A stretch of DNA of 64,000 nucleotides from Myxococcales bacterium (GTDB lineage: Bacteria; Myxococcota_A; Polyangia; Polyangiales; Houyiibacteriaceae). Where the stretch lies: NCBI GenBank assembly GCA_029861865.1, contig JAOTYL010000016.1, positions 1 to 64,000 on the forward strand, given 5' to 3'. The notes under the pieces are model-generated. The model did not search any database and had not been told where the DNA came from. It saw nothing but the letters and a program-made list of their open reading frames with translations. Shown here piece after piece: positions 15,893 to 39,086 of the stretch (its first letter is position 1; each line of letters opens with the position of its first letter). The position numbers and the translations under genes are program-made.

Positions 15893-15905
15893 CGCAAAAC
15901 CTGCG
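15893..15905. promoter_or_regulatory. UAS palindrome CGCA-N5-TGCG (upstream of USP gene)
   Basis: A perfect copy of the palindrome shared by the island promoters, centred about 105 bp before the predicted start of transcription at 16004. A half-matching copy (CGCA-ACCAT-TTCC) lies 29 bp downstream at 15922-15934. Confidence 0.65.
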
Positions 15906-15977
15906 CAATCCGCCTTCGCCTCGCAACCATTTCCGCAACCATGACCCATCCATGCGTTGTTGGGCGGGTTTCGTCGA

Positions 15978-15993
15978 TGGCACAACCCTTGCT
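15978..15993 (+). promoter_or_regulatory. Sigma-54 -24/-12 promoter (TGGCACAACCCTTGCT)
   Basis: Matches the consensus TGGCACG-N4-TTGCW with one change and has the required GG-N10-GC spacing. Predicted transcription start is about 16004, nine bases before the first candidate ATG of the USP gene. Confidence 0.8.
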
Positions 15994-16012: not shown

Positions 16013-16519
16013 ATGAAACAAGTGATGTCGACCATCCTCACCGTAACTGACCTCACAACCGCGAGTTACAAATTGGTGGGATTCGCCGCTCTCGTGGCCG
16101 GGGCTCCCGACGGTGAGGTAATTTTGGTCTCGACCTATGGAGGGGGAGGGGGTCGGCGGACACAGCCTCCCTCCGATCGCCCGAGCGGGGGTGGATGGAA
16201 GCGGCACGTCGAAGCTCGGCTACGTCGCGAGGGACAGCTCCTCGAGCGTCAACGCCAGTGGTGTGCGGACCAGGGTGTTCTGTGCCGTGCCGAGCTCTAC
16301 GAAGATGGGCTTTGGCCAGAATTCGTGGTTCAGAGCGCAGAGCGTTGTCGCGCGGATCTGATCATGGTTGGGGTCCCGCTGCTCACCGAGACCACTGAGA
16401 TACCGCCCGGCGAGATCCGGATTCTCACCCAAGACGCCCCCTGTCCGGTGAGCCTGGTTCGCCTACCCCAGCGGACGCCCTTCTCAACGGGCACCTTTGC
16501 CGTCACTGCGGGCGCTTGA
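16013..16519 (+). CDS. Universal-stress-protein-like protein (single domain)
   Basis: A 168-residue protein with the USP outline: strand-loop STILTVTDLTTASY at the start, a later DLIMVGVPLLTE strand, and the terminal APCPVSLVRLP strand. The Walker-like G-x2-G-x9-G-S/T motif of ATP-binding USPs is not recognisable, so it may not bind ATP. The ATG at 16025 is an equally possible start. It has its own sigma-54 promoter and upstream palindrome, and it sits 32 bases before the globin-coupled kinase, which it may help express by read-through. Confidence 0.7.
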   Translation: MKQVMSTILTVTDLTTASYKLVGFAALVAGAPDGEVILVSTYGGGGGRRTQPPSDRPSGGGWKRHVEARLRREGQLLERQRQWCADQGVLCRAELYEDGLWPEFVVQSAERCRADLIMVGVPLLTETTEIPPGEIRILTQDAPCPVSLVRLPQRTPFSTGTFAVTAGA

Positions 16520-16551: not shown

Positions 16552-17742
16552 GTGACGGATGTCTCCATACTTTGGCACCTACGCGGCTATGTAGGCTTCG
16601 ATGCCGAGTCTGCTCAAACGCTCCAGAGCTTGGGCCCAATGCTCCGTCCTCATTTCGCACGGATTGTTCAAGAGTTCTACGATGCCGTCCTCGCCGACCC
16701 TGGGGCAAAAGCCGTTTTGCGGGACGAAGCTCAGGTCGCCCGGCTGCGGGTGTCTTTGCACGATTGGCTCGATCGGTTGGTGACCGGACCCTACGACGAG
16801 GCGTACTTTGAAAAACGGGCGCGGATCGGCCGGATGCATGTCAAGGTCGGCCTCGACCAGCGTTACATGCTGGCGGCGATGAACTTGATTCGGACCGGGT
16901 TGCATCGGGCTGTCTCCGAAACGTCCGGGGGTACTCGAGCCTTCTTCGAACGGCACCAAGCCATCGATCAGATCTGCGATATCGAGCTCGCGATCATGCT
17001 CGAGACGTATCGCGAAGACTACATCCTCAAGAAGACCGCCGAGGTCGAGTCGTTGGCGGTCATGGGCAGGTTGACTGCGGGTTTGGCTCACGAAATTCGC
17101 AACCCACTCAATGCCGCAATGCTTCAACTCAATGTACTTGAACGCAACGCCAAGAGTGTCGGTGATGCTACGACTCGACGCAGAATCGAGCGACGTACCA
17201 ACATCGTCCAAGACGAGCTCAAGCGTCTGTCCATGCTGCTCGATGACTTCCTCAATCTAGCGAGAGCGCGGCGTTTTGAGCCGGTCCACTGTGATGCGAG
17301 CGAGCTCGTGAAAGAAGTGATCGAGCTTCGCGGTCCGGAGATCCAATCCCAGGGCATCGACATTACTTCGGATATCGACCGGAGTCCGGGCCTCCTCTTC
17401 GCGGAGCCTGACCGGCTCAAACAGGTCGTGAACAACTTGATCACCAACGCGGTCGAAGCCGTGATCGATTGCGAGTCACCCACGATTCGTGTGACGAGCC
17501 GTCGGTTGGATCGCGACCGTTGGGAGGTTGCAGTCATCGACAACGGCCCTGGCGTCGCGTTAGAGATCGCCGATAGCGCCTTCGAATCGTTTGTGACCAC
17601 CAAAGAGGCGGGCACCGGCTTGGGCCTCGCGATCGTGAAGCGCATCGTCGAGCTCCACGGGGGCGCTTCCCAGCTCACGCGAGCGTCCGGAGGCGGCACC
17701 CAAGCTTCCTTCTGGATTCCGTTGCGGCGGCGGTCGCGTTAG
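16552..17742 (+). CDS. Globin-coupled sensor histidine kinase
   Basis: A 396-residue soluble kinase. Residues 1-150 are a protoglobin-type sensor: the segment RARIGRMHVKVGLDQRYM contains the expected proximal heme ligand, about His96. Residues 160-396 are the kinase core: H-box AGLAHEIRNPLNAA (phospho-acceptor about His180), N-box NNLITNAVEA, G1 DNGPGV and G2 GTGLGLAI. No membrane segments are visible, so it senses a cytoplasmic gas, probably O2, possibly NO or CO. GTG start. It converges with the NtrC-type response regulator, their ends overlapping by four bases, and the two very probably form a pair. Confidence 0.93.
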   Translation: MTDVSILWHLRGYVGFDAESAQTLQSLGPMLRPHFARIVQEFYDAVLADPGAKAVLRDEAQVARLRVSLHDWLDRLVTGPYDEAYFEKRARIGRMHVKVGLDQRYMLAAMNLIRTGLHRAVSETSGGTRAFFERHQAIDQICDIELAIMLETYREDYILKKTAEVESLAVMGRLTAGLAHEIRNPLNAAMLQLNVLERNAKSVGDATTRRRIERRTNIVQDELKRLSMLLDDFLNLARARRFEPVHCDASELVKEVIELRGPEIQSQGIDITSDIDRSPGLLFAEPDRLKQVVNNLITNAVEAVIDCESPTIRVTSRRLDRDRWEVAVIDNGPGVALEIADSAFESFVTTKEAGTGLGLAIVKRIVELHGGASQLTRASGGGTQASFWIPLRRRSR

Positions 17743-19187
17743 TCGCCATCGGCTCGAGTCGGTGGTTGATAGCCCCACTCCTTGACGCGGTATTGGATCT
17801 TACGCTGACTGATCCCGAGAATTTCGGCCGCGCGAGATGTCGAGCCATCGACCGCATCCAAGGTCCGGAGGATCGCCATCCGCTCGAGCTCCGACATCGT
17901 GATACCGGGAATCAAGGCCAGCACCGAGCCGTTGTCCAACGTCGCGTGTGCCGAAGTCGGTAGGTCGTCGATGTCGATCAGTTCTCCCTCGCACATCACG
18001 ACGGCGCGCTCGATCGCGTTTTCGAGCTCTCGCACATTTCCCGGCCATGGATAGATCATGAGGTGTTGAAGCGCACGCTGCGTGAACCCGTTCACCTCAC
18101 GTTCGTTTTCTCGCGCGTACTTCCGAACGAATGTTTGGGCGAGTAGGGGAATGTCGCTTCGTCGAACGCGTAGCGGCGGCACGTCCAATTGGACGACCTT
18201 CAACCGGTAGTAGAGGTCCTCCCGGAAACGGCCCTCTTCGACGCCTTGCTTGAGATCGCGGTTGGTCGCTGCGACGACCCGAACGTCTACCTTGAGGGTC
18301 TCGTTGCCTCCAACTCGCTCGAACTCTCGTTCTTGGAGAAATCGAAGCAGCTTGATTTGCACACCTGCGGGAATCTCGCTGACTTCGTCGAGAAAGAGGG
18401 TGCCGCCATCGGCTTGGGTGAACCGTCCGTCGCGGCGGCCTACCGCACCGGTGAACGAGCCACGCTCGTGACCGAACAGCTCGGATTCGAGAAGGGTCTC
18501 ACTCAACGATGCGCAGTTCAAACGGACGAAAGGCTTGTCCTTACGTTGCGAGTTTTGGTGGATCGCGGAGGCAATGAGCTCCTTGCCGGTGCCGGTTTCA
18601 CCATGGATGAGGACCGTTGCTCGGCTGCGCGCTACCTGAGCGACATTCTTCATGAGCCGCTGCATCGATGGATGCTCGCCTAGAATGCTGTCGAACTGGA
18701 ATAGCTCGTCGACTCTCTCTCGAAGCTGCGCCGCCTCGCGGGAGAGACGCGCCCTCTCGAGACCGCGCCCGACGATCGCCGTGACCGCACTGAGCTCGAG
18801 AGGCTTGGTCAGATAGCTGTCCGCGCCGAGCTTGATCGCCTTGACCGCGGTATCGATGGTGGCAAAGGCGGTCATCACAATGAATGTCGCGTGGGGCGCG
18901 AGCGGGCGACCGTGCTCGATCAGCGCAAGACCGTCCATGCCTGGCATCTTCAGATCGGTCAGCACGACATCGGGATCGAACTGTTCGAGCTGAACGAGCC
19001 CAGTCCGGCCGTCCGCTGCCGTGCTCACCATGTAGCCGGCGTCTTCGAGCAACTCCGCGAGAGCGGTTCGGGCGTTCGCCTCGTCGTCGATCACCAATAT
19101 GCGCCCAGTCGAATCTGCCACAGTCAGTCTATGGTCTGGCAGACGCTGGCCCGTGGGCAACTCGGATGCGATGTTTGCGCTTGTCAT
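17739..19187 (-). CDS. NtrC-family sigma-54-dependent response regulator
   Basis: A 482-residue activator with three domains: a receiver at about 28-145 (acidic pocket VIDDE, phospho-Asp in [10 protein letters not shown] about D78, Lys in YLTKPLE), an AAA+ domain (Walker A GETGTGKE, loop GSFTGA in place of GAFTGA, Walker [10 protein letters not shown]), and a C-terminal Fis-type helix-turn-helix ([18 protein letters not shown]). It contacts sigma-54 RNA polymerase and drives open-complex formation. I chose ATG 19187, which has AGGAG just upstream; the longer frame would run through a near-perfect sigma-54 promoter. The partner kinase is the convergent globin-coupled gene. The regulator's own promoter has the regulon palindrome, suggesting autoactivation. 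Confidence 0.95.
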
Positions 19188-19200
19188 GCTTCTCCTACCA

Positions 19201-19216
19201 TGCAGGCTACGTGCCA
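19201..19216 (-). promoter_or_regulatory. Sigma-54 promoter of the regulator gene (TGGCACGTAGCCTGCA)
   Basis: Read on the minus strand, the -24 half is perfect and the -12 half (CTGCA) is a standard variant. Predicted start of transcription is 19190, three bases before the ATG. An AGGAG sequence lies between promoter and ATG and would be lost from such a transcript, so the exact start needs mapping. Confidence 0.75.
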
Positions 19217-19287
19217 AGGGATTCGGCGGTCGCCCCAGTTTTTCTTAGCTTTCAGACCTGGTGCGCGGCGCGGACATGAAAAAGATG

Positions 19288-19300
19288 CGCATCAGGTGCG
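19288..19300. promoter_or_regulatory. UAS palindrome CGCA-N5-TGCG (upstream of regulator gene)
   Basis: Perfect copy centred about 104 bp before the predicted regulator transcription start. It overlaps the 3' end of the convergently placed acyltransferase gene. A weaker TGCG half-site lies 35 bp closer to the promoter. Confidence 0.6.
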
Positions 19301-20766: not shown

Positions 20767-20808
20767 GCCCCGATGGCAGTATTGTCCGGTTTGCCCCAAG
20801 CCCGCTGG

Positions 20809-20821
20809 CGCACAATATGCG
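20809..20821. promoter_or_regulatory. UAS palindrome CGCA-N5-TGCG between WS/DGAT and CBS genes
   Basis: Perfect copy lying midway between two divergent sigma-54-like promoters, about 75 bp from one start and 80 bp from the other. A two-mismatch copy (CGAA-GAGAA-TGCA) lies exactly 30 bp away at 20839-20851. Confidence 0.65.
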
Positions 20822-20868
20822 TCAAGTCGCGGGGTTAACGAAGAGAATGCATAATCGCTGGAAAACCC

Positions 20869-21354: not shown

Positions 21355-21373
21355 GCGATGCAGATCCGGGGTC

Positions 21374-21389
21374 TGGCACGGGGTTTGCT
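21374..21389 (+). promoter_or_regulatory. Near-perfect sigma-54 promoter of tandem USP gene (TGGCACGGGGTTTGCT)
   Basis: Matches TGGCACG-N4-TTGCW at every consensus position. Predicted start of transcription is about 21400, three bases before the ATG, giving an essentially leaderless transcript. I found no CGCA-N5-TGCG palindrome in the preceding 200 bases; the nearest is at 20809. Confidence 0.85.
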
Positions 21390-21402: not shown

Positions 21403-22311
21403 ATGGCGATCAGAACGGCGATTAAGACGATTGTGGTGGGCACCGACCTCGGCGAGTCAGGCCGACGCGCCCTACAACTGGCGGTTCCGACGGCATTAGC
21501 CACCGAGGCAACGCTTTGGCTGGTGCACGCCAACGAAATCGGTTTGGACCATGCGTGGCCGGATCTTCCTTTCGGCGCGAGGTCCGCCGCCCACGCGCTT
21601 CGAGAGCGTTTCAAAGGTCGGTTCGAAAACTGCATGCAGATGTTAGAGGACGAGCGTCGTCGCTGTGAGGAAGCAGGCGTTGCTTGTCACACCTCGTGCG
21701 AGGAAGGGCAGCCGTGGGAAACGATCCTTCGTACTGCGGTGGCGGTGAACGCCGATCTGATCGCAGTGGGTGACCCCGCCGGCGCCGTGGGTCTGCCTGA
21801 GCGGCTTCTCGGCACTACCGCTGAGCGGGTCGTCCGACAGGCGCCGTGCTCGGTCGTCGTCGCATGCGGCCGCGTTCAAAAGAGCTACCAGGGCGCGCGA
21901 ATCGCCGTCGGTGTGGATTTCTCGGTACACGGCATCGAAGCGGTTCGTTGGGCCCGAGATGTTGCGGCAGCTGTCGAGGGCGAGGTGGTGCTTCTTCACG
22001 TGGTTCCGCATCCGATCATGGAAAGCGTCCTACCGCGCGAGTGGCCAAGCGTTCTCGAGGGGCTTGCTTCGGCTGCGCGGTCGCGACTCGAGCAGCTTAT
22101 CGTGAGCGAAGGCTTGCACCCCGACACCAAGGTGCAGGTGCTCGATGGGTCGATCGGAAAGAAGGTGTGCAATGCAGCCGCCGATCACCAGGCGGATCTG
22201 TTGTTCGTGGGGTCGCGTGGTCAGGGAAGGCTCCGGGGTATGATGTTGGGCAGCACGCCTCAATACTGTCTCCGCTATTCTCCCGTCCCAGTGCTGGCAG
22301 TCCGGCCGTAA
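21403..22311 (+). CDS. Tandem-domain universal stress protein
   Basis: A 302-residue protein with two USP domains: residues about 5-155 begin TIVVGTDLGESGRRAL, and residues 165-302 begin IAVGVDFSVHGIEAVRWA. The second domain ends with LLFVGSRGQGRLRGMMLGSTPQYCL, a G-x2-G-x9-G-S-like nucleotide-binding loop. The first has DPAGAVGLPERLLGTTAERV in that place, which is less canonical. It probably senses or binds ATP. No Shine-Dalgarno sequence is visible, in keeping with the leaderless promoter geometry. Confidence 0.92.
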   Translation: MAIRTAIKTIVVGTDLGESGRRALQLAVPTALATEATLWLVHANEIGLDHAWPDLPFGARSAAHALRERFKGRFENCMQMLEDERRRCEEAGVACHTSCEEGQPWETILRTAVAVNADLIAVGDPAGAVGLPERLLGTTAERVVRQAPCSVVVACGRVQKSYQGARIAVGVDFSVHGIEAVRWARDVAAAVEGEVVLLHVVPHPIMESVLPREWPSVLEGLASAARSRLEQLIVSEGLHPDTKVQVLDGSIGKKVCNAAADHQADLLFVGSRGQGRLRGMMLGSTPQYCLRYSPVPVLAVRP

Positions 22312-23857: not shown

Positions 23858-23942
23858 GGCGTCCGTATGCTGGACGACACCATACCAGTCGAACGCAAAT
23901 CACGTCGACGCGACGCATTTCTCGCGCAGCTCGTACTGTCGA

Positions 23943-23955
23943 CGCAGCGCTTGCG
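23943..23955. promoter_or_regulatory. UAS palindrome CGCA-N5-TGCG upstream of host-attachment-like gene
   Basis: Perfect copy centred about 93 bp before predicted start 24042. A one-mismatch copy (CGCA-TTTCT-CGCG) lies 29 bp further upstream at 23914-23926. Confidence 0.65.
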
Positions 23956-24015
23956 CTACGATCATCCCCGCGACCTCCAAGGACGGGTTCCTGTGGCGCG
24001 AAGGCCGACTTCAAT

Positions 24016-26537: not shown

Positions 26538-29500
26538 TCATAGCCACTTTTGGATGTGCATGCCTAGTGTTCCTGCGCGCATCTTCGTTCGTTGTCTGGG
26601 TCGCACTCGGAACCTCAGCTCGTGTCCACCGCTCGCTTCGACCGTGAAGGCTCCACGCCAGGTGCTTCGGTCTTCTTTCCCCTTAGCCTCGAACGGCACC
26701 AGGATTCGCGATGGCCTGTCGTGCGTCCGTGCTCCGAAAGCAACCACCGCTTCCACGTCGAGTTCCCGCGCGTCGAGGCCCGGGTGGTGGAGGGAGAGCT
26801 CGGCTGAAACCGTGGTGCCGACGATGAGCTCGTCTGCGCCGAGGCCTCCGAACCGCACGCTTTCCATTGCGATCTCGCCCCAATGCGCGCGCAGCCTCTC
26901 GGCGAGATCGGCCAGCGCAAAGAGTGGCCGGTAGTTCGATTCGCGGAGCGCCACCGCGTCTTTCATGGCCGGTTCGTAGAACATATCGGCATAGTCGGTC
27001 ACCATTCGGCGAGATGAAAAGCGAGGAATGATACTTGCCATACTGGCCTTCATTCGCTCGACCCATTCGAGCGGTATGCCGGCATCGTTGCGCCGCTTGT
27101 AGGTGGGAAGAATTTCCGACTCAAGTAAGGCCATCGTGACGGCGCGATCGTATGCGCTCGGGTCGTGGATGGTCGTTGCCGGCAAGTCGATGACCCAGCC
27201 ATTGTCACCCTCGTACCCCTCGATCCACCAGCCGTCGTCGACGCTGAGGTTCAAGCAGCCGTTCATCGCGGCCTTCATGCCCGAAGTACCGCTTGCTTCG
27301 AGCGGGCGGGTTGGAGTGTTGAGCCAAACGTCGCACCCGGCGACCATTCGGCGGGCTTCGTCGATCGAATAGTTCTCGATGAAGATGACTTTTCCGACCA
27401 AATCGGGGTGTTTGGTGGCTTGATAGACCCTCTGCAGTAGCGCCCTCCCTTGCCCGTCGGCGGGATGTGCCTTGCCGGCGTAGATCAGCGTGGCCCCGGG
27501 GTTTCCATCGACGAGCTTGGCCAGCCGTTCGGGCTCGCTGAGCAGAAGGTCTGCACGTTTGTAGGGTGCAAACCTGCGCGCGAAGCCGATGAAGAGTCGA
27601 TCCTCGTCGAGTTGGGCGAGAATGTCCTGAAGCACCGAAAGGTTTTCGCGACGACGAGTCCACGTCTTGGTGAGGTGGTCCTTGAGCCAGCCGACGAAGT
27701 CCTGCCGAAGCTCCTGATGCACGCTCCATACCTCGGCGGGGTCATGGTGACGCAGCCACTCCCACCGGTCGGCGTCTTCGATCGAATCGCGCCAGTTTGG
27801 GCCCATCTCCCGCTCGGCCAATCGCTGCCATCGAGGAGCAAGCCAGCTTGGGACGTGGACACCGTTTGTGATGCTGGTGGACGGGACGTCGTCGGCGCTG
27901 TCCATATCGGGGTAGAACTGGAGAAACATCTGGCGGGCGACCTCGCCATGCTTCGCACTTACTCCGTTGATGCGCCCGGAGCTCCTGACCGCCAACGCAG
28001 TGGTGCCGAACTCGTTGGGCTTCCCTTGGGGGGTGTGGCCCATCGCCATGAGGCGGGGCCAGTCTAGTCGCAGGACGTGCTCGAAACGTGACAAAAAAGG
28101 CCGCACCATCTCCTCGGGGAAATGGTCGTGCCCGGCCGGCACGGGTGTATGGGTCGTGAACACGGTCGTGTTGCGAATGTACTCGAACGCTTCCTGCGAG
28201 CGCAGGCCGTGCCGTTGAATCAGGTGCGCGGCACGCGCGATGAGCAGAAAGGCGCTGTGTCCCTCATTCATGTGAAACACGTCCGGATCGATGTCGAGTT
28301 CGGTGAGGAGCTGGTAACCTCCGAGGCCGAGGATCATCTCCTGCCGCAGCCGATGTTCCGGGTCACCGCCGTAGAGTCGATTGGTGATCGCGCGGTCCTC
28401 TGGCTTGTTGTCCGAGATGTCCGTATCGAGCAAGAAGAGCGGGATCCGCCCGACCTTGAGCTGCCAGGCTTGCGCGTGCACGGGGCCTGTCGGCAGGGGG
28501 ACGGTCACCTTGAGGGGCGCATAGGCGCCTGCCATGACTTGCTCGAAAGGTGGGTTCTGAAAGTCGTTGTTGTCTCCCCAAGCTTCCTGTTGACCGTCAC
28601 GATCGATGAACTGGTGGAAGTAGCCCTCGTGGTAGGCAAGCCCAACAGCACACAATGGCAGGTTCAAATCGCTGGCGGCCTTCAGATGGTCGCCTGCGAG
28701 GATCCCGAGGCCACCGGAGTACAGCTTGAGAAAGCCTGCAATCCCAAACTCCATGCAGAAGTAGGCGATGCGAGGCTCCGGCATCTCGGTCGAGCTCGGC
28801 AAGCGCTGATGAACTTCTTCGACACTGCGCACGTACTCCGCGTCCATCGCGAGGTTCATGAGCCTGTCTGGCTTTACCTGGTCGAGAAGCGCGTGCGGGT
28901 TCTCCTCGAGCTCGAACCAGAGGGTCGGGTCGAGACGCTTGAAGAGCGCGGCCGCCTCGGGATGCCAGCGCCACCATAGGTTCGCCGCGATGTCTTCTAG
29001 AGGTTGCAGCTCGTCCGGGAGGGCGTTGGCGACGTTGAAAGTCCGAGTGTACGGCGGTGCCTCCTCTCCTTCGGCGCGGGGTAATCGTTCGACCAGGCCG
29101 AAAACGCCCGAGGTGTCAGTCGCGGCCGGCATCGACGGCACGCTGAGTCGCTCCATGGGGAGCTCTTTTCGCCTGGCCGCGCCTGCCGCTAATGCCCGGT
29201 GATGCGCGTCTTCGTAGTGGTCCATGAAGTTGGACCACGCGGTCAACGCAGCCGTCGCGAGGGATGCCCGCCGCAGGGACTCCCGATCCTCTGGAGAGAG
29301 ATCGATGAATTCGACCAGAGCCGCAGTCAGGGTGTCGCTCACTTCATCGAAGGGAACCCCCTCTCGTTTGAGCACACGAACCCCGGTTCGATCACCGTCT
29401 CCCTGGCGGGCGACCCACCGACCAAAACCCGCGCGATCCGTCGTGATGGCTGGGACGCCAAAGGCTACAGCCTCAAGCGGGGTGTATCCCCAGGGCTCGT

Positions 29501-30791
29501 AGAACGAGGGAAAGACACCGAGGTCTGCACCGGGCAGGAGGTCCCAGTACCTCTGGCGGATCAGCGGGTCGGTGCCGTCGAGGTAGATCGGCACGTGAAC
29601 GACGTGTACGCGGGCGCCCGGATTATTGTCGAAGCTGAGCGCGTTCAACTTATTGGTGATCGGGTCGTTGGCCTCATCGACGAGGTCGTGTGTGCATCGA
29701 AGCGGCGGCCCCGCAGAACCGCCATGGGCCCTGTCCCAGAGTTGTCGCTTTGGCTCGGCATGTCCGGCAGGCAGCATCGCGTACAGGATGATGCGCTTCC
29801 CATCTCGGGACTCGAGCTCGGTCCGTAACTTTGCAGACGCATTCAGATAAACGTCCACGCCCTTGTTGATGTATTCGTAGCGTCCGGCCAGCGCGAAGAT
29901 CAGCGTCCCGTCTCGATCGTAGGTGTCCCCGGTGGTCAACTCCGCGAGCTTGAAAAGCTCGTCTCGCGCCCGTGTACGCTGCTCGGGCATAACCGGACGA
30001 GCGCCAAAACCATTGGGCAAGATCACATCCGGTTTGCGCTTGAGAAGATGGTCGCATTCGAGGGCAGTGATCTCACTCACCGTCGTGAACACGTCTGCCG
30101 CATGTGCGGCAACCTTTTCCATCGAGTGCTTCGACGAAACCTGGAGCTCCTTGGCCGCGGCTTCCACGTCTACGCTCGGCAGAGACTGGTAGAAGTTTGG
30201 GTCGGCCTTTCGCCCCGCGAGGGAGCGTCCGAGCATTGTGGCGTGCGTGGTGAACACAGTGCCGATCTCGGGCGCTGCGGTCTTCAGGTGAAGGATGGCA
30301 GCGGCAGACATCCACTCGTGAGCTTGGACGATCGCTGCTTGGCGAGCTGGAAGAAGAAATCGATCACGAATGTGCTCGATCACCATCCCCGTACCGTGTG
30401 CGAACAACACCGGGTCGTAGTAGTCCCAGGCGCCAAAGAGCGAATCGAGCCCGAACTCTTCCCAGTAGCGGCCGAGGATTTCGTCTTTGCGCTGGTAGAG
30501 ACGCGACTGGTTGATCAGAAGGCAGCGAGGCTCGCCTGGTACCAGCCAACGCCCCATCACGACTCCGACCTCATGGTCTTTGAGAGAGTCGAGTAGCTCG
30601 GGGTCCCACACGTCCGCGCGGAACTCTGGAACAACCCCTTCGGCTCTCGGAATGTCCGGACCAAAAGTGATATATCCGTCTTCGCCGTGTCTCTCCTGAA
30701 CCTCGCGAACCCGGCTGGCCAAGACGGTGTGAATCCCGCCGACCATGTTGCAGACCTCCCACGAGATCTCGAAGAACGCGGGCTTGCTCAT
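26538..30791 (-). CDS. Glycogen synthase - alpha-glucan phosphorylase fusion
   Basis: A 1417-residue bifunctional enzyme. Residues 1-560 resemble eukaryotic-type (GT3-like) glycogen synthase: ISWEVCNMVGGIHTVLASR at the start, HEWMSAAAIL, HATMLGR and PSFYEPWGYTPLEA. Residues 590-1417 are alpha-glucan phosphorylase (GT35): AYFCMEFGIAG, YSGGLGILAGDHLKAA, FTTHTPVPAGHD, SITNGVHVPSW and the PLP-binding EASGTSGMKAAMNG (Lys about 1173). One chain would thus both extend and phosphorolyse glucan. Similar fusions are known in Bacteroidetes and some deltaproteobacteria. Its start overlaps the GH57 stop by four bases; it is last in the glycogen operon. Confidence 0.93.
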   Translation of the reverse strand: MSKPAFFEISWEVCNMVGGIHTVLASRVREVQERHGEDGYITFGPDIPRAEGVVPEFRADVWDPELLDSLKDHEVGVVMGRWLVPGEPRCLLINQSRLYQRKDEILGRYWEEFGLDSLFGAWDYYDPVLFAHGTGMVIEHIRDRFLLPARQAAIVQAHEWMSAAAILHLKTAAPEIGTVFTTHATMLGRSLAGRKADPNFYQSLPSVDVEAAAKELQVSSKHSMEKVAAHAADVFTTVSEITALECDHLLKRKPDVILPNGFGARPVMPEQRTRARDELFKLAELTTGDTYDRDGTLIFALAGRYEYINKGVDVYLNASAKLRTELESRDGKRIILYAMLPAGHAEPKRQLWDRAHGGSAGPPLRCTHDLVDEANDPITNKLNALSFDNNPGARVHVVHVPIYLDGTDPLIRQRYWDLLPGADLGVFPSFYEPWGYTPLEAVAFGVPAITTDRAGFGRWVARQGDGDRTGVRVLKREGVPFDEVSDTLTAALVEFIDLSPEDRESLRRASLATAALTAWSNFMDHYEDAHHRALAAGAARRKELPMERLSVPSMPAATDTSGVFGLVERLPRAEGEEAPPYTRTFNVANALPDELQPLEDIAANLWWRWHPEAAALFKRLDPTLWFELEENPHALLDQVKPDRLMNLAMDAEYVRSVEEVHQRLPSSTEMPEPRIAYFCMEFGIAGFLKLYSGGLGILAGDHLKAASDLNLPLCAVGLAYHEGYFHQFIDRDGQQEAWGDNNDFQNPPFEQVMAGAYAPLKVTVPLPTGPVHAQAWQLKVGRIPLFLLDTDISDNKPEDRAITNRLYGGDPEHRLRQEMILGLGGYQLLTELDIDPDVFHMNEGHSAFLLIARAAHLIQRHGLRSQEAFEYIRNTTVFTTHTPVPAGHDHFPEEMVRPFLSRFEHVLRLDWPRLMAMGHTPQGKPNEFGTTALAVRSSGRINGVSAKHGEVARQMFLQFYPDMDSADDVPSTSITNGVHVPSWLAPRWQRLAEREMGPNWRDSIEDADRWEWLRHHDPAEVWSVHQELRQDFVGWLKDHLTKTWTRRRENLSVLQDILAQLDEDRLFIGFARRFAPYKRADLLLSEPERLAKLVDGNPGATLIYAGKAHPADGQGRALLQRVYQATKHPDLVGKVIFIENYSIDEARRMVAGCDVWLNTPTRPLEASGTSGMKAAMNGCLNLSVDDGWWIEGYEGDNGWVIDLPATTIHDPSAYDRAVTMALLESEILPTYKRRNDAGIPLEWVERMKASMASIIPRFSSRRMVTDYADMFYEPAMKDAVALRESNYRPLFALADLAERLRAHWGEIAMESVRFGGLGADELIVGTTVSAELSLHHPGLDARELDVEAVVAFGARTHDRPSRILVPFEAKGKEDRSTWRGAFTVEASGGHELRFRVRPRQRTKMRAGTLGMHIQKWL

Positions 30792-35505: not shown

Positions 35506-35566
35506 AAGCCTGACGCGAACCATCGCGTCATTCCGTCACAACTCGCCAACAATATCACTGTCGACG

Positions 35567-35579
35567 CGCATTGCATGCG
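35567..35579. promoter_or_regulatory. UAS palindrome CGCA-N5-TGCG, glycogen operon, proximal
   Basis: Perfect copy centred about 94 bp before the predicted glycogen-operon transcription start. Confidence 0.7.
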
Positions 35580-35597
35580 GCTCGTAGCATTTTCTGG

Positions 35598-35610
35598 CGC
35601 AACTTGTGCG
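35598..35610. promoter_or_regulatory. UAS palindrome CGCA-N5-TGCG, glycogen operon, distal
   Basis: Second perfect copy, 31 bp from the first, centred about 125 bp before the predicted start. Paired sites three helical turns apart fit cooperative binding of NtrC-type dimers. Confidence 0.7.
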
Positions 35611-36483: not shown

Positions 36484-37377
36484 TCAGCCCTCCTGGTGGG
36501 TCAGCAGTAGCGGAATCTCGCTGTCGTGGAGGAGCCGCCTGGCAACGCTGCCGATCAGGAGGCGCTCGATGCCGCTCTTTCCGGTGGTGCCCGCGCATAT
36601 CAGGTTTGCCCCTACGTCGTTGGCCACTTTGAGGATCCCCGCAGTGGGATCCCCCGTCACCAAGTGCGTCTGAATGGCTTGCGCGTCGATCGAAAAAAGC
36701 TCGTTGGCATCGTCTTTCAGCATCCCTTCGAGCCCCCGGTGCAGGGCCTGGCGACGCTTTTCGGCGGCCTCACCGACGACGGCTCCTCGATCCGTGTATT
36801 CGCCCCAAACGTCGAGGTAGCTGTGCACGAGGTGAAGAGACCCGTGGCAGACGCCATGAATAGCTCGCGCAACCTCGGCCGCGTGTTTGGCCGGCGCAGA
36901 AAAGTCGTAGGCGATGACTATCGAGCTCGGGACTCCATCGCCCTTTGGGGGAACGACGATGATCGGTGTGTGCACGGTCTTGAGAACCCGCTCGGTAATG
37001 CTCCCGTACATGAACTTCGAAACGCCGCTCCGACCATGCGTCCCTACGACCACCAAGTCGACATCGTGCTCTTTGGCATAGTCACGAATGACCTCGTGGA
37101 CCGTGCCTTCGCGGATCACCGTGAAGTGCTCCAACCCTGCTGTGTCGATCGTTTGAGACTGCTGATCGAGAGCCTCTTGCGCGTCGTTGAGGATGCGGGT
37201 GACGGCCTCCGGGCCCGGGCTGTACGAGAGATCCATCAGCAGATAGTTGGGGATGACCGGCGTGTGCAACAGATGGAGCTTCGCAGAGCATTGTTTCGCG
37301 AGCGCGATTGCGTAATCGAGCGCGAGGTATGCATTCTGGGAGAAATCGGTGGGGACGAGGATTTGATTGATCTGCAT
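36484..37377 (-). CDS. Tandem-domain universal stress protein
   Basis: A 297-residue protein with two USP domains. The first starts INQILVPTDFSQNAYLALDYA and contains DLVVVGTHGRSGVSKFMYGSITERVL, a canonical G-x2-G-x9-G-S ATP-binding loop. The second (about 153-297) starts SSIVIAYDFSAPAKHAAEVA and has NLICAGTTGKSGIERLLIGSVARRLL, also canonical. Both domains therefore probably bind ATP. It follows the hemerythrin gene by 36 bases on the same strand. Confidence 0.94.
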   Translation of the reverse strand: MQINQILVPTDFSQNAYLALDYAIALAKQCSAKLHLLHTPVIPNYLLMDLSYSPGPEAVTRILNDAQEALDQQSQTIDTAGLEHFTVIREGTVHEVIRDYAKEHDVDLVVVGTHGRSGVSKFMYGSITERVLKTVHTPIIVVPPKGDGVPSSIVIAYDFSAPAKHAAEVARAIHGVCHGSLHLVHSYLDVWGEYTDRGAVVGEAAEKRRQALHRGLEGMLKDDANELFSIDAQAIQTHLVTGDPTAGILKVANDVGANLICAGTTGKSGIERLLIGSVARRLLHDSEIPLLLTHQEG

Positions 37378-37413: not shown

Positions 37414-37875
37414 TCAGCCGCCAAAAGTGTCCGTTGGCATGAGGCTATCGCGGAGAAGTTTCTCATTGACATAGTGTTTCTCTTCTTCCTCGATGTCCTT
37501 GCGCAGCATCTCCGCAAGGTCGGCGATCCCCTTTTCGATTTCGGCAGGAGACTTCGCGTCGAGGATGGCGTGCAACAAACGGTCGAGGTGCGCTCGTTGC
37601 TCGGCGTGTTCGGCGTGGAGGTGGCGTGCGCGTTCGGGTCCAAAGCCGTCCGCTTCGCTTATCGCCGGCACCATGTGGGTTTCCTCGAAGGTCATGTGAA
37701 GCTCGAGGATTCCTCGTAGGGCATATGCGGCGCGCTTAACCCGATCCTCCTCTTCTTCTCCCTCTCGGAGTTGTCGCGCGCCAACCTCCAGCTCCGCTAG
37801 CATCTTTTCGATCTCCCGGTGCTGGGTCAAAACCTTCTGACGAACTTCGGAAGGCATCAACGGATCGTCGCTCAT
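37414..37875 (-). CDS. Hemerythrin-like HHE-domain protein
   Basis: A 153-residue four-helix-bundle di-iron protein. The ligand pattern is TQHREIEKML, ELHMTFEETHM (His and Glu), HLHAEHAEQRAHLDRLL and EEEEKHYVNEKLL. It may store or sense O2 or NO, or protect against oxidative stress. ATG 37875 has AGGGAGG at the right spacing; the longer frame runs through the promoter. It is divergent from a USP gene, and both share two regulon palindromes. Confidence 0.9.
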   Translation of the reverse strand: MSDDPLMPSEVRQKVLTQHREIEKMLAELEVGARQLREGEEEEDRVKRAAYALRGILELHMTFEETHMVPAISEADGFGPERARHLHAEHAEQRAHLDRLLHAILDAKSPAEIEKGIADLAEMLRKDIEEEEKHYVNEKLLRDSLMPTDTFGG

Positions 37876-37905
37876 GTCATCCTCCCTTTTGACCGATCGA
37901 AGTCG

Positions 37906-37921
37906 TGCAAAGACTGAGCCA
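37906..37921 (-). promoter_or_regulatory. Sigma-54 promoter of hemerythrin operon (TGGCTCAGTCTTTGCA)
   Basis: The -12 half TTGCA is perfect, the -24 half has two substitutions outside the invariant GG. Predicted start 37895 leaves a 19- to 20-base leader that retains AGGGAGG, the cleanest geometry among the promoters found. Confidence 0.8.
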
Positions 37922-37954
37922 GAAGCCTTTAGCAGGATTTGCCCCGACCCGGCA

Positions 37955-37967
37955 CGCAACTTCTGCG
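37955..37967. promoter_or_regulatory. UAS palindrome CGCA-N5-TGCG, hemerythrin/USP divergent region, site 1
   Basis: Perfect copy, here extended to CACGCA-N5-TGCGTG. Centred about 66 bp from the hemerythrin start and 103 bp from the USP start. Confidence 0.7.
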
Positions 37968-37983
37968 TGGCCTCGGAATCTTT

Positions 37984-37996
37984 CGCAGAACATGCG
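37984..37996. promoter_or_regulatory. UAS palindrome CGCA-N5-TGCG, hemerythrin/USP divergent region, site 2
   Basis: Perfect copy 29 bp from site 1. Centred about 95 bp from the hemerythrin start and 74 bp from the USP start. Confidence 0.7.
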
Positions 37997-38037
37997 TGTT
38001 CTTGGATACGCTTTCGGCTTGATTCCGCTGCCCTGAT

Positions 38038-38053
38038 TGGCACGGAGCTTGAT
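38038..38053 (+). promoter_or_regulatory. Sigma-54-like promoter of USP pair (TGGCACGGAGCTTGAT)
   Basis: The -24 half is perfect; the -12 half reads TTGAT where TTGCW is expected, so the C of GC is missing. The site lies at the right distance from two regulon palindromes. Predicted start 38064 gives a seven-base leader. Confidence 0.5.
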
Positions 38054-38070
38054 ATAGAAAGGGTGAGCTC

Positions 38071-38547
38071 ATGGATCAGCCCAAGACGATTCTCGTCGGC
38101 ACGGACTTCTCGGACATCTCCGACGAAGCGCTTCGTACGGCGGCACTTTTTGCCAAGACGTTTGGCTCGCGAGTATTGGTGGCTCATGTGTTCGATCCGA
38201 CTCCGAACGTGCCGCCCGTCGTTTGGTCTCGGCCCGACCTTCTAGAACGCAGCATCAGAGTCGAGATCGAACAGGCGATTCGAGAAACACTCAGCGGAAA
38301 GACCGCGTCGCTCCTCAAGGACGTCCCCGAGGTGGAGCTGAGCGTGTGTCAGCATCCTTCGGCCGGTCGCGCTCTGTGCGAAATCGCGGAGGACGAAGGC
38401 GCGGATCTTCTCATCTTGGGATCTCACGGTCGAAGCGGGTTATCCCGCGCTTTTCTGGGAAGTGTTGCCGAAAAGGTCGTGCGTCACGCCCCATGCCCTG
38501 TGTTAGTCGTGCGCGAACGGCGAAAAGAAAAGAAGGGTGGTGGATAA
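38071..38547 (+). CDS. Universal stress protein (single domain)
   Basis: A 158-residue single-domain USP. It begins KTILVGTDFSDISDEALRTA and ends with DLLILGSHGRSGLSRAFLGSVAEKVV and HAPCPVLVVRERR, the canonical ATP-binding loop and final strand. A basic tail (RRKEKKGGG) follows. Three bases separate it from the next USP gene, so the two form an operon divergent from the hemerythrin operon. Confidence 0.95.
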   Translation: MDQPKTILVGTDFSDISDEALRTAALFAKTFGSRVLVAHVFDPTPNVPPVVWSRPDLLERSIRVEIEQAIRETLSGKTASLLKDVPEVELSVCQHPSAGRALCEIAEDEGADLLILGSHGRSGLSRAFLGSVAEKVVRHAPCPVLVVRERRKEKKGGG

Positions 38548-38550
38548 CCG

Positions 38551-38964
38551 ATGGCGCTCATTCCGCGATTAGTCGTTGCTTACGATTTTTCGGATCCCGC
38601 ACGGCGTGCCTTCGAGCTCGGTGTGTTCATGGGTCGACAGCTCGATGCGGAGGTCCACGTGATCACCGTGCTCGACTCCGGCGACGAGAAAGACGCGTCG
38701 AAAACCAAGCGAGAGCTCGAGGATCTCAGAAAACTTCTCGAAATGCAGACCTGTGGTGCCGTCAAGAGCGATGACCTCCGAATCGAGTGTCATGCTTTGG
38801 CCGGCGACCCTGCCGAGGCGATCGTGGCCAGGGCTCGAGAGATCGACGCGCCACTGATCGTGTGCGGGACCACCGGCAAAGGAGCTGTCGCGCGCACTCT
38901 CTTAGGGAGCGTTTCTCACGAGCTGGTCCACCGAAGCGGGGCAATCGTCATGTCGGTGCCTTAG
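38551..38964 (+). CDS. Universal stress protein (single domain, short)
   Basis: A 137-residue USP beginning PRLVVAYDFSDPARRAFELG and ending LIVCGTTGKGAVARTLLGSVSHELV and SGAIVMSVP. The ATP loop is canonical in spacing. It is shorter than its neighbour in the helix 2 region. It is second in a two-gene operon. The 155 bases downstream contain the YwiC promoter region and palindromes. Confidence 0.93.
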   Translation: MALIPRLVVAYDFSDPARRAFELGVFMGRQLDAEVHVITVLDSGDEKDASKTKRELEDLRKLLEMQTCGAVKSDDLRIECHALAGDPAEAIVARAREIDAPLIVCGTTGKGAVARTLLGSVSHELVHRSGAIVMSVP

Positions 38965-39003: not shown

Positions 39004-39016
39004 CGCAGTGCTTGCG
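39004..39016. promoter_or_regulatory. UAS palindrome CGCA-N5-TGCG, YwiC operon, distal
   Basis: Perfect copy centred about 103 bp before predicted start 39113. Confidence 0.7.
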
Positions 39017-39033
39017 CGACACGCTTCGGTAAA

Positions 39034-39046
39034 CGCACAAAATGCA
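39034..39046. promoter_or_regulatory. UAS palindrome variant CGCA-N5-TGCA, YwiC operon, proximal
   Basis: One-mismatch copy exactly 30 bp from the distal site, centred about 73 bp before the predicted start. Confidence 0.55.
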
Positions 39047-39086
39047 GGGATTCGTGTAGAACGAGGCAGGATATGCTCCTGATCGC

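Follow-up and report, generated by a model that had tools for sequence, protein, structure and literature searches.

A predicted NmpR-type site pair between divergent sigma-54 promoters of hemerythrin and USP genes in uncultured Myxococcota

The divergent hemerythrin/USP gap

The stretch of DNA analysed here, hereafter the window, spans 64,000 nucleotides of a Myxococcales genome (contig JAOTYL010000016.1), and includes a gap from which two gene sets run in opposite directions. To the left, on the minus strand, lies a hemerythrin gene (37414..37875), with the histidine/HxxxE iron-ligand pattern, which is probably cotranscribed with a tandem USP gene (36484..37377); to the right, on the plus strand, lie two further USP genes (38071..38547 and 38551..38964). 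The 195-bp gap between them holds two palindromes, both perfect matches to CGCA-N5-TGCG and predicted to be NmpR-type sites, namely P1 (CGCAACTTCTGCG, 37955..37967) and P2 (CGCAGAACATGCG, 37984..37996), at a distance of 29 bp. They are flanked by two predicted sigma-54 promoters, one for the hemerythrin operon (37922-37906, minus strand, CTGGCTCAGTCTTTGCA) and one for the USP genes (38037-38053, plus strand, TTGGCACGGAGCTTGAT), with predicted +1 positions, reckoned with the G at -24, of 37895 and 38064, respectively. The centre of P1 lies at -66 from the hemerythrin +1 and at -103 from the USP +1, that of P2 at -95 and -74, and 39 bp separate P1 from the left sigma-54 element and 47 bp P2 from the right one. 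At the rate found in the genome, the probability of two perfect sites in a given gap of this length is ~2.5e-5. The palindromes, their spacing, the opposite sigma-54 elements and the four distances had been described in a first-pass annotation, and proved exact to the base.

An alignment of this gap from 16 genomes of one genus, the window's own included, shows that both palindromes, the 29-bp spacing and both sigma-54 cores (on the USP side TGGCACG and CTTGAT) have been kept, while the bases between the conserved elements are mostly variable. Both arms of P1 are invariant, and the only arm substitution in the alignment falls in P2, in a single genome (G025). The -12 half of the USP promoter reads TTGAT, truly without the usual C, from which it had been suggested that this promoter may be weaker; we do not uphold that suggestion, as TTGAT is invariant in the 16 sequences, which makes the -12 look like a selected feature. 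In Salmonella, sigma-54 binds a promoter that carries TTGATTA, and the operon behind it is induced 11-fold (PMC3844500). The idea of a weak, decaying USP promoter was accordingly ruled out on the invariance of TTGAT. Two other stretches, 37929-37940 (TTAGCAGGATTT, between the hemerythrin -24 and P1) and 38003-38012 (right of P2, TCGCTATGCTT in most relatives), are conserved to a degree almost equal to that of the binding sites. Judged by eye, the conserved TTAGCAG-ATTT and TATGCTT stretches gave no convincing match as sigma-70 or IHF sequences, and no further perfect copies of either were found in the window.

The NmpR-type regulator and its globin kinase

The window also encodes an NmpR-type activator (17739..19217, minus strand) with a receiver (REC), a sigma-54 AAA+ domain and a Fis-type HTH, whose closest relatives are in Myxococcota and whose start is likely the ATG at 19187, given the overlap of the listed TTG start with a sigma-54 element. 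The NmpR of M. xanthus, which is NtrC-like, governs an oxygen-utilisation regulon that includes genes for USP, CBS and hemerythrin proteins. It binds GCGCA-N5-TGCGC, with sites 14-15 nt apart in 5/7 bound promoters; the full arms are preferred, but some bound sites depart from them outside the core (PMC11841059). Both sites and sigma-54 are needed at the NmpR enhancer, where expression is lost on mutation of the proximal site and reduced on that of the distal one; low oxygen induces one of the targets (PMC11841059). The GCA-N5-TGC core is perfect in both P1 (ACGCA-N5-TGCGT) and P2 (TCGCA-N5-TGCGT), the outer base of the arms differing on both sides from the M. xanthus GCGCA consensus, and, taken as 15-bp sites (37954-37968 and 37983-37997), the two leave a gap of 14 nt near the sigma-54 promoters. 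The M. xanthus enhancers likewise have an N5 dyad, a 14-nt gap between 15-bp sites and a close sigma-54 promoter (PMC11841059, PMC6211767). Their target classes (USP, CBS, hemerythrin) are also alike, and the regulator likewise targets its own system, here as judged from the sites alone: candidate NmpR-type sites, by sequence match, occur at the promoters of the kinase operon, the regulator gene and the hemerythrin, USP and CBS genes. The window differs, apart from the outer arm base, in the placing of one pair between two promoters that face outward and in that no NmpS was found. Orthology to M. xanthus NmpR would rest on similarity and gene neighbourhood, linked through a locus (L034) at which a regulator 71% identical to the window's adjoins NmpS- and NmpU-type genes. 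A second regulator, with ~55% identity to the NmpR-type protein of the window, occurs in some members of the genus (G015, G021, G022, G028).

Next to the regulator gene lies a gene for a protoglobin-HisKA-HATPase kinase (16552..17742, plus strand), with a globin like that of AfGcHK and a transmitter of NmpS type, preceded by a small conserved ORF (16013..16519, plus strand) that has no Pfam match. We take the Tyr and His of AfGcHK to be its heme ligands. The globin domain of the window kinase aligns with AfGcHK (5ohe), with Y43 and H96 at the heme-ligand positions, and the protein appears to be a protoglobin kinase that has kept its heme ligands. The regulator gene of other families has as neighbours a separate hybrid of NmpS type and a globin kinase of NmpU type. 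No separate NmpS (receiver-PAS-HisKA) was found in 8 genomes of the genus, in each of which the best NmpS match covered the transmitter part only and adjoined the regulator gene, which is the place of the globin kinase. Moreover, a tree built from transmitter domains places the window kinase within a clade that holds NmpS-type hybrids (96/94) and apart from the NmpU-type kinases (100/96). An NmpS-type transmitter on this kinase suggests that it may phosphorylate the regulator directly, and, if so, induction at low oxygen would need an oxygen sign opposite to that of AfGcHK. We see about an even chance that in this genus the three-step NmpU-NmpS-NmpR relay has been shortened to a direct two-component system, with a globin sensor on an NmpS-type transmitter, an oxygen sign opposite to that of AfGcHK/NmpU if it is induced by low oxygen, and an output via phased two-way enhancers that would drive gene pairs in both directions. 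We found no earlier description of a kinase joining a globin sensor to an NmpS-type transmitter.

Distribution of the sites in the window, the genome and Myxococcota

Perfect sites are concentrated in the window, where 11 were found with 3.4 expected, a count reached by 0/100 shuffles. A pattern search of the whole genome returned 155 perfect sites vs 156 for the reversed pattern; the excess in the window is therefore local, and a genome-wide excess was ruled out, the local excess being in pairs. Good sigma-54 elements adjoin 9/11 of the perfect window sites and, with one to two mismatches allowed, all site-adjoining promoters in the window except the regulator's own have a pair at 29, 30 or 31 bp. 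Such pairs precede the kinase operon (perfect at 15893, degenerate at 15922, 29 bp, 15893..15934; sigma-54 at 15977-15993, plus), baeRF (one mismatch at 23914, perfect at 23943, 29 bp, 23914..23955; sigma-54 at 24015, plus), a glycogen debranching operon (perfect at 35567 and 35598, 31 bp, 35567..35610; sigma-54 at 35506, minus) and the YwiC/CBS/DHH genes (perfect at 39004, one mismatch at 39034, 30 bp, 39004..39046; sigma-54 at 39086, plus). The regulator gene has a single perfect site (19288..19300) upstream of its sigma-54 element (19217-19201, minus), which is not kept in aligned relatives. Across the genome, pairs with up to two mismatches number 16 at 29 bp vs 4 in the control, and 17 at 30 bp vs 13 in the control, so that some of the 30-bp pairs will be non-functional; elsewhere in the genome, pairs with a sigma-54 element precede e.g. 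a flavoprotein gene and a NiFe hydrogenase small subunit gene. As a separate observation, a single 1417-aa reading frame at 26538-30791 (minus strand) joins glycogen synthase, DUF3417 and glycogen phosphorylase domains.

The gap between the WS/DGAT and CBS genes (20809..20851), with sigma-54 elements at 20767 (minus, WS/DGAT) and 20868 (plus, CBS), had been reported to have the same arrangement as the hemerythrin/USP gap. The two-way layout is indeed there, but only the palindrome at 20809 is perfect, its partner at 20839 (CGAAGAGAATGCA, 30 bp off) being degenerate, and, of 6 aligned sequences, all have kept the WS/DGAT-side promoter core and only about 3 clearly have the CBS-side promoter. 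As a two-way case it is weaker than the hemerythrin/USP gap. The best sigma-54 match in the window (CTGGCACGGGGTTTGCT, 21373-21389, plus strand) lies ahead of a tandem USP gene at 21403; no good palindrome was found within 130 bp of it, and it is perhaps driven from the distant 20809 or by another activator.

Two-way copies that are symmetric were found in more distant Myxococcota, at L035 (47/77 and 49/79 bp, between CBS and USP genes) and at L175 (48/78 and 50/80 bp). Over 78 promoters, some of them related by descent, the distances from the nearest palindrome to the sigma-54 element cluster near 37, 47, 58-59, 68 and 78 bp, with a period of ~10.4 bp (R 0.52), and 0/5000 jittered sets were as strong. 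Repeated units were also seen: one 7.6-kb contig (L194, contig 41 of G018) carries three promoter units at 2952, 3547 and 5132, each with a palindrome pair at 28 bp and a sigma-54 element ~47/75 bp away. Similar pairs with sigma-54 at 98 bp lie at two contig ends (L200 at 257 and L201 at 719, contigs C23 and C13), one of them preceding a NiFe hydrogenase small subunit, and these may be duplicated operons cut by the contig ends.

In a survey of 282 Myxococcota genomes, the regulator was scored as present in 62 (match at E <= 1e-140). Perfect pairs at 28-32 bp occurred in 37/62 genomes with the regulator vs 16/220 without (p ~1e-17, an optimistic value given the kinship among the genomes and the tandem repeats behind a few pairs; some of the counts, as in G186, come from short tandem repeats and are not regulatory). 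Over the same 282 genomes, neither control pairs at 33-37 bp (p 0.07) nor a reversed-pattern control (p 0.06) showed a clear association with the regulator. Seven perfect pairs were found in 479 kb around closer regulators, and none in 717 kb around less related EBPs (50 loci, L051-L100). Co-loss was seen in G023, a single genome with broad gene loss, in which the regulator and kinase genes are deleted and a CBS gene comes straight after DUF434 on one continuous contig; the window CBS gene that matches this junction lies beyond the regulator and kinase. G023 is also without both palindromes, the hemerythrin gene and the USP -24, and has kept the left sigma-54 element.

A probable paired enhancer for two promoters

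With high probability, P1 and P2 together form a paired enhancer at which the NmpR-type regulator (17739-19217) acts. Once phosphorylated, the regulator would bind both sites cooperatively as dimers and assemble into an active AAA+ ring, which, via short DNA loops, would remodel sigma-54 polymerase at whichever flanking promoter it contacts. A single pair would thus drive the hemerythrin and tandem USP genes leftward and the two USP genes rightward, as part of an oxygen-linked regulon. This reading is supported by the match of motif and spacing to the published NmpR site with its 14-15 nt gap (PMC11841059), by the presence of the regulator gene, the globin kinase and like promoters in one cluster, and by the 16-genome conservation, the co-occurrence, the helical phasing, the L035/L175 copies and the co-loss in G023. 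Against it stand the outer arm base (ACGCA/TCGCA vs GCGCA) and the persistence in G023 of the left sigma-54 element without a palindrome. From the sequence we infer binding of the window regulator at P1 and P2, a response in both directions and low oxygen as the signal. The first-pass proposal, that one bound hexamer could activate two promoters facing away from each other, is thereby strengthened in its layout, with both promoters and palindromes strictly conserved, a like layout in two distant Myxococcota and the published effect of NmpR at sites of this motif and spacing (PMC11841059). The conserved NmpR-type enhancer between two sigma-54 promoters thus appears real, and two-way activation of the hemerythrin and USP promoters likely.

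The palindromes might instead be divided between the promoters, with P1 mainly serving hemerythrin and P2 mainly the USP genes, and with dimers acting separately and sharing no ring. The 39 bp from P1 to the left element and the 47 bp from P2 to the right one are common proximal distances, as such a division would have it, but two sites at 28-31 bp are likewise present at one-way promoters of the window and the genus, and in M. xanthus the distal site contributes to expression along with the indispensable proximal one (PMC11841059); we regard this division as unlikely. Rather less probable still is an enhancer that governs one direction only, the other sigma-54-like element being a chance match or the target of another activator. 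The CBS-side element at 20809, missing in about half of the relatives, and the hemerythrin-side element that persists in G023 without any palindrome would fit such a case, which is countered by the invariance of both sigma-54 cores of the hemerythrin/USP gap in 16 genomes. That a different NtrC-family activator binds the palindromes is very improbable, for although the genome has many EBPs, about 20 with a strong sigma-54 domain, the core motif is that of the published NmpR site, the sites cluster around the NmpR-type gene, their loss in G023 coincides with the loss of that gene, and no perfect pairs were seen at the 50 loci around less related EBPs.

A paired enhancer shared by two promoters has partial parallels. 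As proposed for the window, one response regulator, ZraR, serves two divergent sigma-54 promoters at zraP / zraSR (PMC4987338), with another regulator, signal and set of target genes. The hycA and hypA operons under FhlA are adjacent sigma-54 operons on opposite strands with one activator (PMC3844500, PMC4987338), but FhlA is no response regulator and its site is CATTTCGTACGAAATG. On two-way sigma-54 enhancers we found little in the literature beyond Salmonella papers, and no earlier description of conserved two-way use of an NmpR-type site pair; the published NmpR site search demanded sites and promoter in one orientation (PMC11841059). In gene content, an analogue is the mycobacterial DosR hypoxia regulon, which includes USPs, a wax ester/DGAT synthase, CBS proteins and heme sensor kinases, DosR itself being a LuxR-type regulator without sigma-54.

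Taken together, these results extend the known NmpR system to uncultured relatives of Myxococcus, in which its control sites may serve two promoters, and whose kinase resembles a shortened relay, with sensor and transmitter fused. What emerges is a defined unit of regulation, widespread in uncultured Myxococcota, in which a regulator of a known, oxygen-linked kind is matched with an enhancer of fixed two-site layout; its NmpR-type sites can be predicted from the spacing within a pair and from helical phase. The two-way copies are suited to the question of how one AAA+ ring is shared between two sigma-54 promoters.
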